This document shows, piece after piece, positions 49,722-58,250 of a DNA stretch of 64,000 nucleotides; the first letter of the stretch is position 1; each line of letters starts with the position of its first letter. A program made the position numbers and the translations under genes. Source of the DNA: Cystobasidiopsis lactophilus (Eukaryota > Basidiomycota > Agaricostilbomycetes > Agaricostilbales > Chionosphaeraceae); NCBI GenBank assembly GCA_001599975.1, contig BCIO01000004.1, forward strand, positions 1,277,434-1,341,433. Direction: 5' to 3'. The notes below the pieces were generated by a model. It was not told where the DNA came from. It did no database searches and worked only from the letters and a program-made list of their open reading frames with translations.

Positions 49722-49948
49722 GGCGAGGGTCACTTGGAGGTGCATTGGCGAGAGGGGTAATCCTCGCCACCAGACTCCTTCTCGCGAGTTTCGCCATCGC
49801 GTTCTTTGCAATAGACTCTAAGAGTCTTCATTGTACCACTGCATCGAAATAATTCCACAAGCCAAAAGTTGCGCGGATCTCTCGAAGAGAGGCGAGGCAC
49901 GTCTCCGCCCGCGGACGGCCCCCTTCCCAAAACGGCGAATTCATCAAG

Positions 49949-51871
49949 ATGGGACTCGCCTCGAAAGTGAGCATCCCGTCTTGTCGGTATAGCGTGCCAA
50001 GCCTGACACAAAGATAGCTCGCCGCTGCACAAGCTGGTTATAGTTCGCACCCCGCTCTCAACGTGCCGCCTTGGCGAGAAACTGACCCTGCCGACCTTGC
50101 CTTCGTTAGATCCAGGCCAGGTCTCTTACGGTGGCTCTAGCTACGGCCAACCTCCTCCCAACGCCAACCAAGCTGCCAGACGTACAGTTCCTTCTTCCCT
50201 TTCAGTCGCGCCGAGGAGCCCACCTCACCATCCTCTGCAGCTCCCACTGGTCCTCCTGGAGCTCCTCAGCAGTCGTATGGTGCACCACCTGGCTCTTATG
50301 GTCAGCCACCTGCCGGCCAACAGAGCTACGGCGCTCCTCCTGCCGGCCAACAAAGCTATGGTGCTCCTCCTGCGGCCCCTGGCCAATACAGGCCCGGTGG
50401 ACCTCCTCGTGAGGAATCATCTCATACAAGCACAATTTGCGTTTTGATTTTGACCTGCGTGTCGCAGCCGCTGGCCAGCCGGGATCATACGGTGCTCCAC
50501 CCGCACAGCAAAGCTATGGCCAACCTCAACCTGCTTACGGACAGCCGCCACAGGGAAGCTACAACCAGCAAGGCTCTCAACCCGGTGGCGCTCCTGGCGG
50601 CGCTGGCGGCGGACTCAGCGCTCAGATGATCGCTTCCATCTTGCAAGAATGCGTGCAGGATCAGCATCTGGCGGGCTTCTACCCAAACCCTCAGGCGCTT
50701 CAGGGAATTGCTCAACAAGTTGCTTCCAGCAACGCTCTGGGCCGTATCGCTGGCGAGTGGCAGTTGCCCATGGAAATTGCCTCAGACCTTGTCAAGCTGG
50801 CCCTGTTCGATAGTATGTCTCTATTGGCCTTTGGCCTTCCGTGTTCCTTACGTCTCCTTCTCTCAGCGATCGTGTTCGTCGATGACAGTGGCTCCATGGC
50901 CTTGTGAGAACTCCGCCGCTTCTCTAGTATAAAGGCAGCTGAAAGAGATGTCTTCAGCGAGGAGAACGGCTCTCGAATTGACGATCTCAAATTCGTCCTC
51001 GGCAAGGTCGCCCTTGCTGCTGGTTTGTTCGACGCCGACGGCATCAATGTCCGCTTCATGAACTCTTCAGTCGTCGGCGATCGCATCAACACCGAGCAAG
51101 CTGCTTTGGCCCTCGTTGGCCAAGTCAAGTTCTCGGGCTGTGGGGGCGCTTTTCTATCTGCGTTAAACGCAATCACTCACCCAGCTCCCATAGTGACCCC
51201 TTTCGGCACCCAGCTCAATGCGAAGGTTATTGAACCTTTCCTCCTCGGACCCGCCCGCAGTGGCCGTCTGCAAAAGCCACTGCTCATCATAGCGCTCACT
51301 GATGGCTGCCCGGCTGGAGAAGACCGAAGCGCGCTGGCCAACGTCATCATCAAGGCAAACAATGAACTCCAGCGCAGTCGTTACGGCGCGGATGCGCTCT
51401 CGCTCCAGGTGAGCCAACAATGATCTGCAGCGCACTCCCTACGGCGCTTATGCTCTCAAAAAAGGTCTCTCAATTGGGGAATGACACGAAAGCGCGCCAG
51501 TTCTTGGAGGAGCTCGACTCCCATCCGCAGGTCGGCAATCTGATCGACTGCACTTCGAACTACGAGCTGGAGGCTGACCAAATGTCCCGCGCTGTCCCTC
51601 GTGAGGATCTTTGAGCTATCGGCAATTTAATTCCCTTCTGACAAGTCAATAGCCGTCGACCTCACCCCTCACCTCTGGTTGGCCAAGATGCTTTTGGGTG
51701 CCATCTCGACTTCGGTGAGTTCCCGATTTTTTAATGCGAAGCCTGACACCTGACTGTGGAATTGTATTGCAGTATGACGCCCAGGTGAGTTATCCATCTT
51801 CTGTTACAAGCTCTGTGGCTGCTTTTGACCTCGCACTGTGATAGGATGAGTCGGGAGGTCCCCGTCGTTGA
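49949..51871 (+). CDS. von Willebrand A domain protein with Pro/Gln-rich N-terminus, tandem copy 1
   Basis: Start MGLASK, spliced to LAAAQAGYSSHPALNVPP. The N-terminal part is a low-complexity region of Ser, Tyr, Gly, Gln and Pro (QSYGQPQPAYGQPP). Next comes a helical domain of about 75 residues (MIASILQECVQDQHLAGFYP, then IAGEWQLPMEIASDLVKLAL). The vWA domain begins AIVFVDDSGSMAL with the metal-binding DxSxS motif intact, and continues RIDDLKFVLGKVALAAGLFD, VRFMNSSVVGDRINTEQAA and LLIIALTDGCPAGED. The last exon adds YDAQ-DESGGPRR. Introns match those of copy 2. The family is widespread in basidiomycetes and has no known function. The protein is probably cytosolic: it has no signal peptide or membrane segment. 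Confidence 0.85.
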
Positions 51872-52064: not shown

Positions 52065-54066
52065 ATGGGTCTTGCTTCTAAACGTTGGTCCAAAGAGCTC
52101 TCATACCATGCTGATGTAGCCTGAAAGCGAGCGCAACAGTCGCTGCAGCGTCTGCTCCCGGAGGAAGTGCTTTCGGTGAGCAACGCCTTTTGACGATGAC
52201 CGTGGCTTGGCGTTAACGGATTTGTCTAAAAGGCGGCTCCCAAGCCCCCGGACAGCTTCCCTATCCTTCAGGCGGTGCCTATTCCCAGCCCCCTCCTACG
52301 AATCAAGGCGCGAGGCGTGAGCTTTCATTCTCCGGAGCTTTCAACTTCGTCCCTGACATTGACGTTTTACGACATTCAGCGCCCAGCGGCGTCTCTGGCC
52401 CTTTGGCTGGACAGCAGCAGCAGTACGGCCAACAGCCCGGACAGTATGGCCAGCAACCTGCCGGACAACAGAGCTACGGCGCGCCCCAAGGGCAATACCG
52501 CCCTCCTGGTGGTCCTCGTAAGTTTCCTTGACACACCGCGCTTTCATCTCGTTCGCTCATGTCCTTTTCATGCTATGCAGCTCCGGGTCAACAAGGCTCC
52601 TTTGCCCCGCCAGGCGGCGCTCCGCCTCAGCAGCAAGGCTATGGGCAGCAGGGCGGCCAAGGACAATACGGACAGCAGGGCCAGTACGGACAGCCAGGTC
52701 AGGGTCAGTATGGCCAGCAAAGCCAGGGTCAGTTTGGCCAGCCAGGCCAGGGCCAGTACGGACAACAAGGTCAAGGACAATACGGGCAGCCTCAACAGCA
52801 AAACCAAGGCGGCTACCAACAGCAAGGCCAAGGCGGTTTTGGCGGCGCCCCTCCTGCTCAATCTGGTGGCGGAAGCGCGGCCAATCCTCAGATGATCCTG
52901 GGCATCCTGCAGCAATGCGTCCAAGATCAAAACTTGGCCTCTTTTTACCCGAACCCCAATGCTTTGCAGCCTATCGCCCAGCAAGTGGCCAACAGCAACG
53001 CGCTCGGTCGCATTGCCGCCGAATGGCAGATCCCAATGGAAATTGCTGCCGACTTGGTTAAACTGGCTTTGTTCGACAGTAAGCTCACGTGGAACCCAGC
53101 TTTGAACTTGCTGACTTCGAACTCTTTCGTAGCTGTCATTTTCGTCGACGACAGTGGTTCCATGGCCTTGTAAGCGCTGTCTCGAATAGAGCTGGATGCC
53201 CTGCTGAAGGCAGCTATAGCGAGGAGAACGGTTCTCGCATCGACGACCTCAAACTGATCTTGGGCCGAGTCGCCTACGCCGCGAGCCTGTTCGATGCCGA
53301 TGGCATCAGTGTTCGCTTCATGAACTCCTCGGTTGTTGGCGACAACATCAACACCGAGCAGGCCGCGCTGAACCTTGTCAGCCAGATCAAGTTCTCTGGC
53401 TGTACGTCGTTGTGCTCCTTTTCAGTCTGCATGATCTCACGCGCTTGAAACGCAGTGACTCCCATCGGGACCCAGCTCAGGTCGAAAGTCATCGAGCCAA
53501 TGCTCCTTGGCCCGGCCAGAAGCGGAAGATTGCAAAAGCCACTTTTGATCATTGCCCTCACCGATGGCAGCCCGGCTGGCGAGGACCGCACTACCCTTGG
53601 CAACACGATCATTCAAGCCAGTCATGAGCTGCAGCGCAGTCGCTACGGCGCCGATGCGCTCTCACTCCAGGTAGGCCATCAATGCACTGCGGCGCACTCC
53701 TTACGGCGCTAATGCTCTCAAAAAGATTGCCCAAATTGGCAATGACACGAAAGCGCGTCAATTCTTGGAGGAGCTCGACTCGCACCCGCAGATCGGTGGC
53801 CTCATCGACTCCACCTCGAACTACGAGCTGGAGGCCGACGAGATGTCCCGGGCCGTTCCTCGTGAGTCTCGCAATCCCCAAACTGTCTTCATTATGCTGA
53901 TGAATATCCTCAGCTGTTGACCTGACCCCTCAACTTTGGCTGGTGAAGATGATGTTGGGCGCAATCGACTCAAGCTACGACACCCGTGCGCGTTCTATCC
54001 TTTTGAACCTGTGGCTTGTGCTAAACTTCTGACGCAGAGGACGAGAAGACCACCGGACGCCACTAG
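52065..54066 (+). CDS. von Willebrand A domain protein with Gly/Gln-rich N-terminus, tandem copy 2
   Basis: Start MGLASK at 52065; short exons (AAASAPGGSAFG and SQAPGQLPYPSGGAYSQ) lead to a prion-like stretch of GQYGQQ, GQYGQP and GQFGQP repeats (52640-52830). Then MILGILQQCVQDQNLASFYP and IAAEWQIPMEIAADLVKLAL, followed by vWA with AVIFVDDSGSMAL, RIDDLKLILGRVAYAASLFD and LLIIALTDGSPAGED. It ends in SSYDT-QDEKTTGRH at 54066. The helical and vWA parts are very close to copy 1, the low-complexity parts differ strongly. The first exon is similar in both copies (MGLASKLAAA). Confidence 0.85.
52630..52830 (+). repeat. In-frame GQYGQ(Q/P) repeat coding for a prion-like stretch
   Basis: About 15 imperfect units coding GQ-Y/F-GQ-Q/P, with codons GGA/GGT/GGC CAG/CAA and TAC/TAT. 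Copy 1 has a QP-rich stretch at this place without the regular repeat. Confidence 0.8.
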
Positions 54067-54225: not shown

Positions 54226-55718
54226 TCAACCCAGGATGTCACTTTTAGCGTCGATAAGCTGTCCAAGCTGTATGAGATGGCTCTCCCTATCAGTGGGCTT
54301 GCCGCGCACCTTTTGAAACAAGCGTGCAGATCCTCCAGGTTTATCGGGGTGATCTGTGAGACCACAGATCATTTTTGGCCAACAAGTTGAGCACAAGAAC
54401 TTGCATTTGAGGCTGAGTTGGAAGACGGCCTGTTCGATGTCATCCTTGCTGGAACCAATAGGCAGGCTAAGAAGCTATGGAGCACATATCAGTGCTCTTC
54501 GAGGCCATGAGAAAAACGCTGGCACCTACTTCGTGGTGATGCATGTAACGAACTCGCTGCCATTCCTCCTTCTCGGCGGCGATATCTTCTCGCTTGATGC
54601 GTGCAGCGACTTTGAGCTTCTCCAGGGTATGGCATTCGCTCTGTATAGTGTCGTATAGATCTCCCAAGGGACAAAAGCATAAAGCCTGTTCACAGCAGTG
54701 AACAGCTTCGTCGAATGATCCTTGCGCCTTCTTGCACTCGGCCAGCAAGCGGTACCTGAGTAAACGTTGGGTCAAATTGGCACTTTAGAGTGTCACAGTC
54801 GAACTCACGCCTTGATGTGAGCCGGGTTACTCTGGACAACTAGTTGCAGATCGTTCACCACACCGTCGAGGTTTCCTGTACCGTTGCACTGCATCGCCTG
54901 CACAATCAATTCAGCGACACAAAGGGGAAAAGAAGACGTGACCTACCATAGTGTAGAGAGCCTTTGCCCTGTTGAAGTGCACAGGTTGCCTCACGTCCAA
55001 AGGGAGGTCCAAACTAAGAGCCCGATCCCATTGTTTGACAGCATCTTCGAGGAGATTATGCGTGTATAAAGTCGATCCAGTGTTGGCGTACACGTCGAAG
55101 ATCTGCGGTTTATCATAAGCCCGGGTCTTCTGCCACTAGCATGAGACACTCAACCCTCTTGATACACGCCGCCTCTTTCTGAGCAATCTCCAACTTGAGA
55201 TGATTGATTTCAGACTCCAGATCAGAGACCTGTTGCCTCATCTTAGAGGCAAGATCCAACCAGAGCGCCATGGGCAGACTCACACTGGAAGGGTCGGGGG
55301 CTACAATCTGCTCCCTCAGCCACTCTACCAGTTTCTTTTCACTCGATAGTTGGCGCTTGAGCTTTTCGACCTCTTTCTGAAGCTGCGGAAGAAGGCGTGG
55401 CTTGAACTTCTTTGTGCGTGCGAAGATGGAGGTACAAGTCAAGCTCACTGCAGCGTCAGTTTCGGCCTTGGCGATAACTTCAACCTGGCTCTGTTTCTGT
55501 AGTTGAACGTTGTACGGATGAATGGGCTCGTCAAGATGAATGAAGCCACAGCTTGGGTAGTTGCAAGTCCCTTGTTGCCTTTCGACAATGCAAACTGCTG
55601 CCTCTCGCAAGTGTTTTGCTGACCATTTGTGGGAGTAGGAGTATTCGCAAATGGCGCCCTTGTGGCATCTGCCCCAGCGTGCAGCATGCAAGCAGGGCTT
55701 TTCTGGCTTTGGAGCCAT
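54226..55718 (-). CDS. CCCH zinc finger - TPR-like - J-domain protein, tandem copy 1
   Basis: Start MAPKPEKPCLHAARWG at 55718. Residues 1-75 hold two CCCH-like clusters: C-x8-C-x5-C in CLHAARWGRCHKGAIC followed by EYSYSHKW, and AVCIVERQQGTCNYPSCGFIH (C-x8-C-x4-C-x3-H). A long coiled coil follows (LQKEVEKLKRQLSSEKKLVE and VSDLESEINHLKLEIAQKE). The next exons are TPR-like: IFDVYANTGSTLYTHNLLED with AVKQWDRALSLDLP, then RYRLLAECKKAQGSFDEAVH. The C-terminus is a J domain: LSLPIGSSKDDIEQAVFQL then the HPD motif in HPDKPGGSARLFQK. The layout TPR before J is that of DNAJC7-type Hsp70/Hsp90 partners. An in-frame upstream ATG like that of copy 2 is lost here by an indel. The last exon is short (LGQLIDAKSDILG). 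Confidence 0.7.
54354..54404 (-). other. GC-AG intron inside the J domain of copy 1
   Basis: Donor GCAAGT, acceptor CTCACAG, 51 bases. It joins LSLK-Y-HPDKPGG in frame. The same intron in copy 2 (56574-56643) has donor GTAAGT. Confidence 0.75.
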
Positions 55719-55803
55719 TGTGGTCGCCGTTTGCGGGACAGGCGCAAAAGAGCGATTTCGGAAAGGAGCATTCACATTCGGCAGTCATTTATGACGAAGG
55801 AAC

Positions 55804-56008
55804 ACGTTGACAGCGACTGAAAGGCAAAGGGCGGCAGGAGCCCCAGTCACATCTCAGCAGTTTTCTGCTTCTCCTGGGCGCGTTTGACAAGAAGCCGGCA
55901 TAGGAATCGGTTTGCCAAAGAGCCAGTGCACACAAAAACCACAGCGGAAGCGCAAAGCAGGCATCCATAAGTGACTTGATCGTCGATGCGGCCCACAAGG
56001 CAATTTCG
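55804..56008. repeat. 205-base direct repeat, copy 1 (promoter side of CCCH-J copy 1)
   Basis: Matches 58046-58250 with only about 5 differences by eye. It covers the promoter region of the CCCH-TPR-J gene. On its right side the similarity stops sharply at 56008. Confidence 0.9.
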
Positions 56009-56410
56009 AGTCGCGCTTCCGAAGCTCGCGAATCACACTCCTTTGTCTCTGTTGACCGCTTCGCAGATCTGGGGTTGGATCTGGATTGAATTAGCTTTCC
56101 GTTGGCGCACGGGCGTGCTTTTCAGAAGAGAGCTGGAATCAGCTGCTGGCGTCGATGAAGTGGTTGAACACTGGAAACAAGGCCGAGTGTTCGTCGCCTT
56201 GAGTGGGCCGAAACCGAAACTCAGAACTCCGTTCAAAACGAAGACAAACAGCCAGAACTTTCAAGAGCTACAGCCCGCAGTGGGAAAAAAAAAACATCCG
56301 TGGGTAGTCCGGTCGATGCAAACATTCGGATTTGTACAGGCCATCAGCAGGAGTCGCAGGCTATTGGTATCAGACTAGGGCCAGAACAGGGAATGCTCAA
56401 AGCCCAGACA
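56009..56410 (+). other. Stretch with a 130-residue open frame that starts in the repeat
   Basis: An ORF at 55986-56378 begins MRPTRQFR, the same start that lies in frame upstream of CMR1 in the other repeat copy, then runs into unique sequence (WGWIWIELAFRWRTG, FKTKTNSQNFQEL). A run of ten A lies inside it. It has no recognisable domain and could be a chance ORF under a captured promoter. No other gene is seen here. Confidence 0.3.
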
Positions 56411-58018
56411 TTAAAGAGAAAAGAGAGAATGCCTACACACATTGTGATCAACCCAGGAGGTGGCTCCTGGCATCTGAAAGCTGTCGTCGAAGACTTAGTG
56501 GCAAACCAGGTGTGCTCCACTCTGCGCACCTTCTGAAACAAACGATCACTTCCGCCAGGCTTGTCTGGGTGATCTGATTGTTTAGGTGACGGACCAGGTC
56601 AGCGAAAATCAGATGAAGAAAAGAAAAGACCGTTTCAACTTACATCTGAGGTTCAATCGTAAGACTGCCTTTTTGATAGCCTCTTTGTTGGCACCGATGG
56701 GCAGTCCAAGCAACTGTTCACCATAGATGAGTTCTGAGTGGAAAGCACCGGACGGAACCCACTTCATTTGGGGTCATGTAACGAACGCGTGCCCACTCTT
56801 CATTCTCGGCGACAATGCCCTCACGCTTGACCCGTTCGCTTTCTTTGAGACTCTCCAGAGCATGACACTCCTTTTGAATGTCGTCGTATAGGTCACCCAA
56901 CGGACAAGAGCGAAGGGCCCGTTGATAAAAGTGAATGGCTTGGTCACTTGCACCTTGTTGATTTTTGCATTTGGCCAGCAAGCGGTACCTGGGTCGAATC
57001 TGAGACAAATAACTCCCGGTACGTCTGGAGAGTCAGGCAGTCTCACGCTTTGACATGAGCGGGATTGCTTCGGACAACATTCTCCAAATCATTGATCACG
57101 CCCTCGAGCTTTCCAGTGCCCCGGCTCTGCCTCACATTCAACACTGACACATCGACGCAAGTAGATTTTCCGGCTCACCAACGTATAATTGGCCCTCGCT
57201 CGATTGTAATATATTGGCTCCTTGACATTAGGGGGAACGTCTGAAGCAAGAGCACGATCCCAGAGCTTGATGGCATCTTCGATGAGGTCCTTCTTGTATA
57301 ACGCCGATCCTGAAGTGGCAAGTACATCGAAAATCTGCGGGGCAAGTCTGGTGAGCACCAGTAGATTTGCAATGGTAGCCTCTGCCATTCACCTTCTTCA
57401 AACACTCGGCCTCTTTATGGGCAATCTCAGCTTTAAGGCGGGCATTCTCGGATTCCAGCTTAGCCACCTGTCATTCAGTTTAGATTGGACGCCACGTCGC
57501 AGCCAATAAGCAGTAGACGCACGCTGGGAGGGTCAGGAGCCACAGCCTGCTCCCTGAGCCATTCTATCAGCTTCTCTTGCTCTGCTATCTTGCGTCTACA
57601 TTGATCATTTTCAGTCTTGAGCTGGGCGAGGCGTAAATGTAGGGTCGGTGCGATGGAAAGAAGTCAAGCTCACTTCAGCTTCAGCCTCAACTTTCGCCAC
57701 AGCTTCTGCCTTGCGCTCCTTTTCTTGGAGCACGTTGTCTGGATGTATGTCCTCCGAAAGGTGGATGAAGCCACAATTGGGGATTTGGCATTGACCTCGG
57801 CCCTTGATCTTTTCGACCCAGCAGACGGCCGCTTCGCGCAAGTGCTTCGCTGACCATTTGTGAGAGTAGGCAAACTCGCAGATGTCGCCTTTGTAACACG
57901 TGCCGCGAGCAGCGTGCAGACAAGGCTTTTGAAATTTTGGTGCCATGGCGATGGCCCTTTGCGAGACAGGCGCAAAAGGGAGGATTTTCGGAGACGAGCA
58001 ATCACACTCGGCAGCCAT
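56411..58018 (-). CDS. CCCH zinc finger - TPR-like - J-domain protein, tandem copy 2
   Basis: Start MAAECDCSSPKILPFAP at 58018 or, as in copy 1, MAPKFQKPCLHAARG at 57946. Two CCCH-like clusters (CLHAARGTCYKGDIC with EFAYSHKW, and AVCWVEKIKGRGQCQIPNC then GFIH). The coiled coil is shorter (KAEAVAKVEAEAEV and LESENARLKAEIAHKEAE). TPR-like exons: IFDVLATSGSALYKKDLIED, AIKLWDRALASDVP and RYRLLAKCKNQQGASDQAIH. J domain: LLGLPIGANKEAIKKAVLRL, then after an intron HPDKPGGSDRLFQK. The final exon after FQK is uncertain: one reading gives MPGATSWVDHN and a stop at 56411. The start faces CMR1 with 266 bases between. Confidence 0.7.
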
Positions 58019-58045: not shown

Positions 58046-58250
58046 ACGTTGACAACGACTGAAAGGCAAAGGGCGGCAGGAGCCCCAGTCACATCTTAGC
58101 AGTTTTCTGCTTCTCCTGGGCGCGTTTGACAAGAAGCCGGCATAGGAATCGGTTTGGCAGAGAGCCAGTGCACACGAAAACCACAGCGGAAGCGCAAAGC
58201 AGGCATCCATAAGTGACTTGATCGTCGATGCGGCCCACAAGGCAATTTCG
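58046..58250. repeat. 205-base direct repeat, copy 2 (shared CCCH-J / CMR1 promoter)
   Basis: Near-identical to 55804-56008, offset 2242 bases. It lies between the divergent CCCH-TPR-J copy 2 and CMR1 and probably is their common promoter. The match ends inside the CMR1 leader. Confidence 0.9.

Follow-up and report, generated by a model that had tools for sequence, protein, structure and literature searches.

J domains with an HPD motif drive ATP hydrolysis by Hsp70, and the site of Hsp70 action is largely set by J proteins, chiefly by way of the module attached to the J domain. The present analysis concerns two tandem genes, referred to as A and B, in a 64,000-nucleotide stretch of DNA from the basidiomycete Cystobasidiopsis lactophilus (assembly GCA_001599975.1, contig BCIO01000004.1, positions 1,277,434 to 1,341,433; the whole stretch is called the window, and its positions are counted from its first letter). 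Each gene encodes a CCCH-like zinc-finger head, a probable coiled coil, a tetratricopeptide repeat (TPR) region and a C-terminal J domain.

Parts of this arrangement have been described elsewhere. Human DNAJC7 has three TPR modules (TPR1, TPR2a and TPR2b), of which the last is the main tau-binding site; groove residues K260/N264 have been mutated (PMC8429438, in the part of the text available). According to the accessible part of a commentary (PMC13278352), DNAJC7 with a mutation that breaks the J-Hsc70 contact still holds, but no longer folds. The Trypanosoma protein TcZC3HTTP unites a C3H zinc finger and a DnaJ domain in one RNA-binding protein, described as confined to trypanosomatids in the available part of PMC10913370. 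Jjj1/DNAJC21 and Cwc23/DNAJC17 are J proteins that act on ribonucleoproteins (RNPs), in 60S biogenesis and splicing, and carry an extra zinc finger or RRM (PMC5473770, available portion).

We interpret A and B as class C J proteins that probably arose by fusion of the 3' half of a DNAJC7-type gene to a finger/coiled-coil gene, and whose head would target nucleic acid or RNPs; we give this reading a probability of about 0.5. A preliminary description of the locus knew of no protein with the same domain order. The full order of CCCH, TPR and J was indeed absent from the literature titles and abstracts among the matches listed (a scope outside which most subscription papers lie), while the combination of CCCH with DnaJ is known from TcZC3HTTP (PMC10913370, as far as available). 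As far as searched, the domain combination appears to be new, and would be a variant of class C J proteins.

Gene structure and age of the tandem pair

The minus strand was read from 59500 to 48000 and exons were joined at splice signals. Splicing and the codon-position pattern defined the following genes:

56448-57946, minus strand: coding span of gene A, 9 exons, 351 residues
57946-57674, 57621-57523, 57467-57393, 57334-57179, 57126-57047, 56988-56763, 56713-56644, 56573-56530, 56480-56448, minus strand: exons of gene A
54226-55718, minus strand: coding span of gene B, 9 exons, 350 residues
55718-55449, 55382-55284, 55229-55155, 55102-54947, 54888-54809, 54755-54530, 54474-54405, 54353-54310, 54258-54226, minus strand: exons of gene B

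The tandem pair with finger, TPR and J parts reported in the preliminary description is real: both copies are intact, open nine-exon genes. Their eight introns each are short (42-70 nt) and match between the copies in position and phase. All but one of the 16 introns are of the GT-AG type; the exception is intron 7 of B (54404-54354), which opens with GC, while the equivalent intron of A is GT-AG. The span first given for B (55718-54226) was unchanged after splicing, whereas that for A (58018-56411) was corrected to 57946-56448, with the stop at 56448: the start codon common to both copies is at 57946 in A, and the ATG upstream at 58018 is in frame in A only.

Introns 4 (54946-54889) and 8 (54309-54259) of B have two AG acceptors each, 9 nt apart. 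Use of the upstream acceptors gives a protein of 356 residues, and use of the downstream ones 350; with the latter, the alignment of A and B has only two indels, both in exon 1, and these acceptors seem to give the best splice form. Because of the paired acceptors, B may make isoforms with a three-residue difference in a TPR loop and in helix III of the J domain.

At the junction of the coiled-coil and TPR frames there is an intron of 58 nt in A (57392-57335) and of 52 nt in B (55154-55103), with splice signals present and the reading frame kept in both copies. Since so short an interval leaves no room for the end of one gene and a new promoter, it is near certain, judging from the sequence, that a single transcript per copy carries the coiled coil and the TPR region.

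The two copies share 62% identity (217/350 aligned positions, stop codon included), and the differences between them are commonest at third codon positions in all nine exons. Nei-Gojobori analysis gave a synonymous divergence (dS) of 1.70, which is near saturation, and a nonsynonymous divergence (dN) of 0.263 (dN/dS 0.155). By part, the ratio was 0.105 for the fingers (the most constrained), 0.155 for the coiled coil, 0.158 for the TPR region, 0.118 for the linker and 0.221 for the J domain (the least constrained). Fisher's test of synonymous against nonsynonymous change yielded 1.6e-36 overall and less than 1e-4 for each part (6e-5 for the J domain). Because dS is near saturation and dN/dS is low in each part, the duplication is old and both copies have been kept under purifying selection. 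The overall ratio and the third-position excess in 9/9 exons led us to reject a pseudogene.

Domains and probable relationship to a DNAJC7-type gene

The exons of both copies fall into four parts, as follows:

57674-57946, minus strand: A exon 1, tandem CCCH-like module, C-x7-C-x5-C-x5-H then C-x10-C-x4-C-x3-H (from the sequence)
55449-55718, minus strand: B exon 1, tandem CCCH-like module, C-x8-C-x5-C-x5-H then C-x8-C-x4-C-x3-H (from the sequence)
57393-57621, minus strand: A exons 2-3, probable coiled coil (pattern of charged residues and leucines, by eye)
55155-55382, minus strand: B exons 2-3, probable coiled coil (by eye; the leucine-zipper model PF14389 matches weakly and stays below cut-off)
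56763-57334, minus strand: A exons 4-6, TPR region and charged linker (Pfam; colinear with the final TPR module of the DNAJC7-type protein from this genome)
54530-55102, minus strand: B exons 4-6, TPR region and charged linker (Pfam; alignment)
56448-56713, minus strand: A exons 7-9, HPD-bearing J domain that ends shortly after helix III; a phase 1 intron interrupts the codon preceding HPD
54226-54474, minus strand: B exons 7-9, HPD-bearing J domain whose helix II is less basic; the intron preceding HPD is GC-AG

Splicing, Pfam matches to TPR and DnaJ, and inspection of the coiled coil by eye agreed with the earlier account, in which each copy has a coiled coil, then a TPR region and, at the C terminus, a J domain with intact HPD. 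Exons 2-3 are likely to form a coiled coil. Each protein has a single TPR region of ~110 residues, in which the models over cut-off (given in brackets) were TPR_16 with 33.3 (32.7) and TPR_1 with 27.8 (27.8) bits in A, and TPR_1 with 32.1 (27.8) and TPR_2 with 28.8 (27) bits in B (30.6 and 29.2 bits, respectively, with the downstream acceptors). The J domain of A passed the DnaJ model PF00226 (32.6 bits, cut-off 27.8), the first residues of the match being at the end of exon 6; with this score above the curated cut-off, a chance J motif was rejected. Profile searches therefore supported TPR in both copies and DnaJ in A; the DnaJ match of B and the CCCH models stayed below their cut-offs (see below). 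HPD lies intact between helices II and III in both proteins, and the PGGS and F residues that follow are also kept. No G/F region (rich in glycine and phenylalanine) and no CxxCxGxG zinc repeats were seen in the sequences of A and B or in their Pfam lists. By domain composition, both are probably class C J-domain proteins.

A DNAJC7-type gene (L022) is present on contig 2 of the same genome (22.1 Mb, 8 contigs). It was spliced from 11 exons up to the J domain (507 residues), and its protein has many TPR matches and a DnaJ match of 59.7 bits. The best match in the PDB is DNAJC3; despite this, we call the gene DNAJC7-type, because its start has no obvious signal peptide (by eye). Residues ~309-499 of L022 are colinear with the TPR-J part of A and B, with local alignment scores of 109 for A and 124 for B, compared with a mean of ~34-37 (standard deviation 5-6) and a maximum of 65 in 200 shuffles of each. 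BLASTP of B against L022, as a single comparison, gave 8e-9, with 26% identity over 206 residues including the J domain.

Two introns of A and B are the same as in L022 in aligned position and phase, namely (i) the one after KA (phase 2) and (ii) the one in the codon before HPD (phase 1); two further introns agree in phase, with an offset of 1-3 codons that varies with the alignment. The genome was scanned with a pattern for a 3' splice site placed in this phase immediately ahead of HPD-(K/N), which is blind to HPD not followed by an AA-starting codon and to non-YAG acceptors. It had five matches: L022, A, B and two sites without a J domain in their flanks in any frame. The pre-HPD phase 1 intron was absent from 16 DnaJ loci (19 matches in a six-frame search; 14 loci read in the DNA, two judged from an unbroken match), one of which, C2:3408770, has an intron one base off. 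Since the six-frame search misses J domains in short exons, including those of A, B and L022, the pattern search replaces it. This control strengthens the link to DNAJC7 and not the functional prediction, the odds of which are unchanged.

Searching the genome with B (17 matches at E<=1) returned, besides A and B themselves, only three zinc-finger exons, all on contig 6, and a single TPR exon, on contig 2; the finger module of B alone added a partial relative at C6:1533767. The three exons belong to tandem genes with the same zinc-finger type (L021 3388-7370; C6:1540387-1544369). One of these was spliced in full and encodes 306 residues, a zinc finger followed by coiled-coil-like sequence, with no TPR or J domain in its Pfam list. 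For the two neighbouring genes, the finger exons alone are certain, and inspection by eye revealed neither TPR nor J domain. The contig 6 genes and A/B form a small finger family with C-x5-H in finger 1. Given the colinearity and intron positions shared with L022, and a separate finger family in the genome, common ancestry with the DNAJC7-type gene, through fusion with a DNAJC7 duplicate, is likely, but not proven.

Wider searches were performed for relatives of the whole protein. With B, none of 2394 candidates from the protein collection reached E<=0.001. A profile of A and B (best 7994 candidates scored) gave six matches at E<=10, the best being a TPR repeat protein (5e-6); at least two of the six carry DnaJ, and no CCCH model is among the Pfam matches listed. 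The first 148-149 residues of A and B had no match at E<=10 among 816 candidates. Spliced fungal proteins may be scarce in this collection, so that the absence of relatives says little. None of the 25 pattern matches in prokaryote genome contigs was confirmed as a relative, and none of the 62 in viral contigs was one. One protein, P0005 ('lgn' source, 429 residues), has Ig-like and DnaJ Pfam models; its J domain is short, lies at the C terminus and contains HPDKPGGS, as in A and B. Short C-terminal J domains may recur.

Proposed function and alternative explanations

In the proposed history, a DNAJC7-type gene would have contributed its 3' half, which codes for the last TPR module and the J domain, to a fusion with a gene of the zinc-finger/coiled-coil family. 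The tandem CCCH-like head, with self-association through the coiled coil, would dock the protein on its target, a nucleic acid or an RNP. There the TPR module would hold a protein client, like the last TPR module of DNAJC7, and the J domain, via HPD, would fire the ATPase of a cytosolic or nuclear Hsp70, the client being remodelled or released. It is most likely the added head that would choose the target; RNA targeting by the fingers is a plausible prediction and the weak step of the reading. The connection of Hsp70 and Hsp90 suggested in the preliminary description was not supported, as the TPR positions matching K260/N264 of human DNAJC7 (placed by eye, without the human sequence) are Ala and Ser in both copies, which makes binding of Hsp90/Hsp70 EEVD tails by the TPR groove doubtful.

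Several observations weigh against the reading as a whole. Some concern ancestry: among the seven other J domains compared, those of L001, L002 and L003 score higher with the J domain alone (68, 70 and 74 for A, L022 giving 65; likewise for B with 62, 73 and 72, L022 giving 58). The TPR region of A scores 74 with the first TPR module of L022 and 62 with the last, whereas that of B prefers the last (80 versus 74), and the sole L022 exon found in the genome search with B is from the first module.

Others concern the fingers. Finger 2 fits the usual CCCH spacing (C-x4-15-C-x4-6-C-x3-H) in both copies. Finger 1 has C-x5-H, two residues longer than usual and outside this spacing, in 5/5 aligned family members and a sixth on contig 6. 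All zinc-finger Pfam models were below cut-off in A and B (the best, zf-CCCH_12, had 19.2 versus 27 bits), neither copy was among the 18 matches (E<=1) of PF00642 in the whole genome, and the AlphaFold model of the zinc-finger exon was uninformative (mean predicted local distance difference test score 50.6). The two CCCH-like clusters noted earlier in each copy therefore stand for finger 2 and less well for finger 1, and we call exon 1 a divergent, CCCH-like tandem module, a label based on its Cys/His spacing and weak profile similarity. The spacing of finger 1 and the CCCH model scores below cut-off would suit fingers that serve in protein-protein contacts or in folding, or bind DNA, A and B then being ordinary cytosolic TPR-J co-chaperones that carry an unusual adaptor and are unrelated to RNA. 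We regard this as possible but rather unlikely. A profile of five family members had 17 matches (E<=10) to PDB sequences, the best to tristetraprolin (0.0013) and ZMAT5 (0.0026); three are WIPI2, and the other 14 we take to be CCCH-type proteins (one entry itself reads C3H1-type), most of them presumably RNA binders. The fingers are, in addition, the most constrained part of the pair.

The remaining objections concern the J domain of B, which scores 26.3 or 26.5 bits (upstream or downstream acceptors), just under the DnaJ cut-off of 27.8, and has lost the basic helix II (charge by eye ~+4 in A and -1 in B). Because of this difference in charge, B may be a weaker Hsp70 partner than A. Decay of the J domain, at least in B, would leave TPR/zinc-finger adaptors or holdases no longer driving Hsp70, and the highest dN/dS of the five parts points in the same direction. 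We consider such decay unlikely, as HPD and the PGGS and F residues after it are kept in both copies, and the excess of synonymous over nonsynonymous change in the J domain is significant. The earlier claim that J-domain activity is under selection is supported as regards selection on the J domain itself (ratio of 0.221, common HPD), and qualified by the charge of helix II. Finally, two transcription units per copy, a zinc-finger gene beside a TPR-J gene, as exist separately on contigs 6 and 2, were rejected as practically negligible in view of the 52-58 nt introns with splice signals and preserved frame.

A more specific form of the fusion reading, a lineage-specific class of RNP-directed J proteins in which, after duplication of the fused gene, A drives Hsp70 through its basic helix II and B, with this helix neutralised, mainly holds the same RNP client, is doubtful. 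A J protein with its own CCCH-like head and a DNAJC7-type client-holding module would offer a single-chain test of finger-directed delivery of Hsp70 to RNPs, and the shared introns provide a concrete history of how such a protein was assembled; if RNA binding fails, A and B would be only an unusual orphan co-chaperone.

Flanking sequences and comparison with known systems

Both genes are preceded by a nearly identical block:

58056-58250, minus strand: block of 195 nt upstream of A, sharing 98% identity with its counterpart at B
55814-56008, minus strand: block of 195 nt upstream of B, sharing 98% identity with its counterpart at A

This identity was observed despite near-saturated synonymous sites in the coding regions, and the genome yielded no further copy of the block. 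The pattern suggests either that a promoter underwent gene conversion recently or that constraint in cis is very strong. The block of A ends ~35 bp (by eye) before the plus-strand ATG 58285 of a neighbouring frame and, owing to this proximity, may be a promoter common to both. Its RNA fold had a z value of 0.58, and Rfam at gathering scores had no match in the window.

On the plus strand, a further probable tandem pair lies at 49900-51700 and 52500-53930. It is rich in Gln and Pro and includes a stretch, 'VDDSGSMAL', that is VWA-like by eye; four open frames tried gave no Pfam match at E<=0.01. A plus-strand frame at 48649-49407 matches COA8, a cytochrome c oxidase assembly factor, just over the cut-off (28.3 versus 27 bits).

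Among known systems, the DNAJC7 type resembles A and B in that a J domain follows a TPR module and lies at, or close to, the C terminus. By alignment, A and B keep the last TPR module of DNAJC7 and the J domain. They differ in having one TPR module instead of three, a J domain that stops soon after helix III, an added N-terminal zinc-finger/coiled-coil head, and Ala and Ser at the EEVD-clamp positions of the first TPR (by eye). Tristetraprolin, ZMAT5 and CPSF30, with tandem CCCH fingers, have similar Cys3His clusters and weak profile similarity; the C-x5-H of finger 1 and scores below the Pfam cut-offs set A and B apart. ZC3H7A/B (RoXaN) joins TPR and CCCH fingers in one protein, in the opposite order and with no J domain. 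Jjj1/DNAJC21 and Cwc23/DNAJC17 have an N-terminal J domain and another finger type and, unlike A and B, are without TPR. TcZC3HTTP was compared by description and not by sequence: in the available part of PMC10913370, 'Tetratricopeptide' occurs once, for another protein. After this trypanosome case, a second meeting of CCCH and J domains would suggest that the combination is useful.

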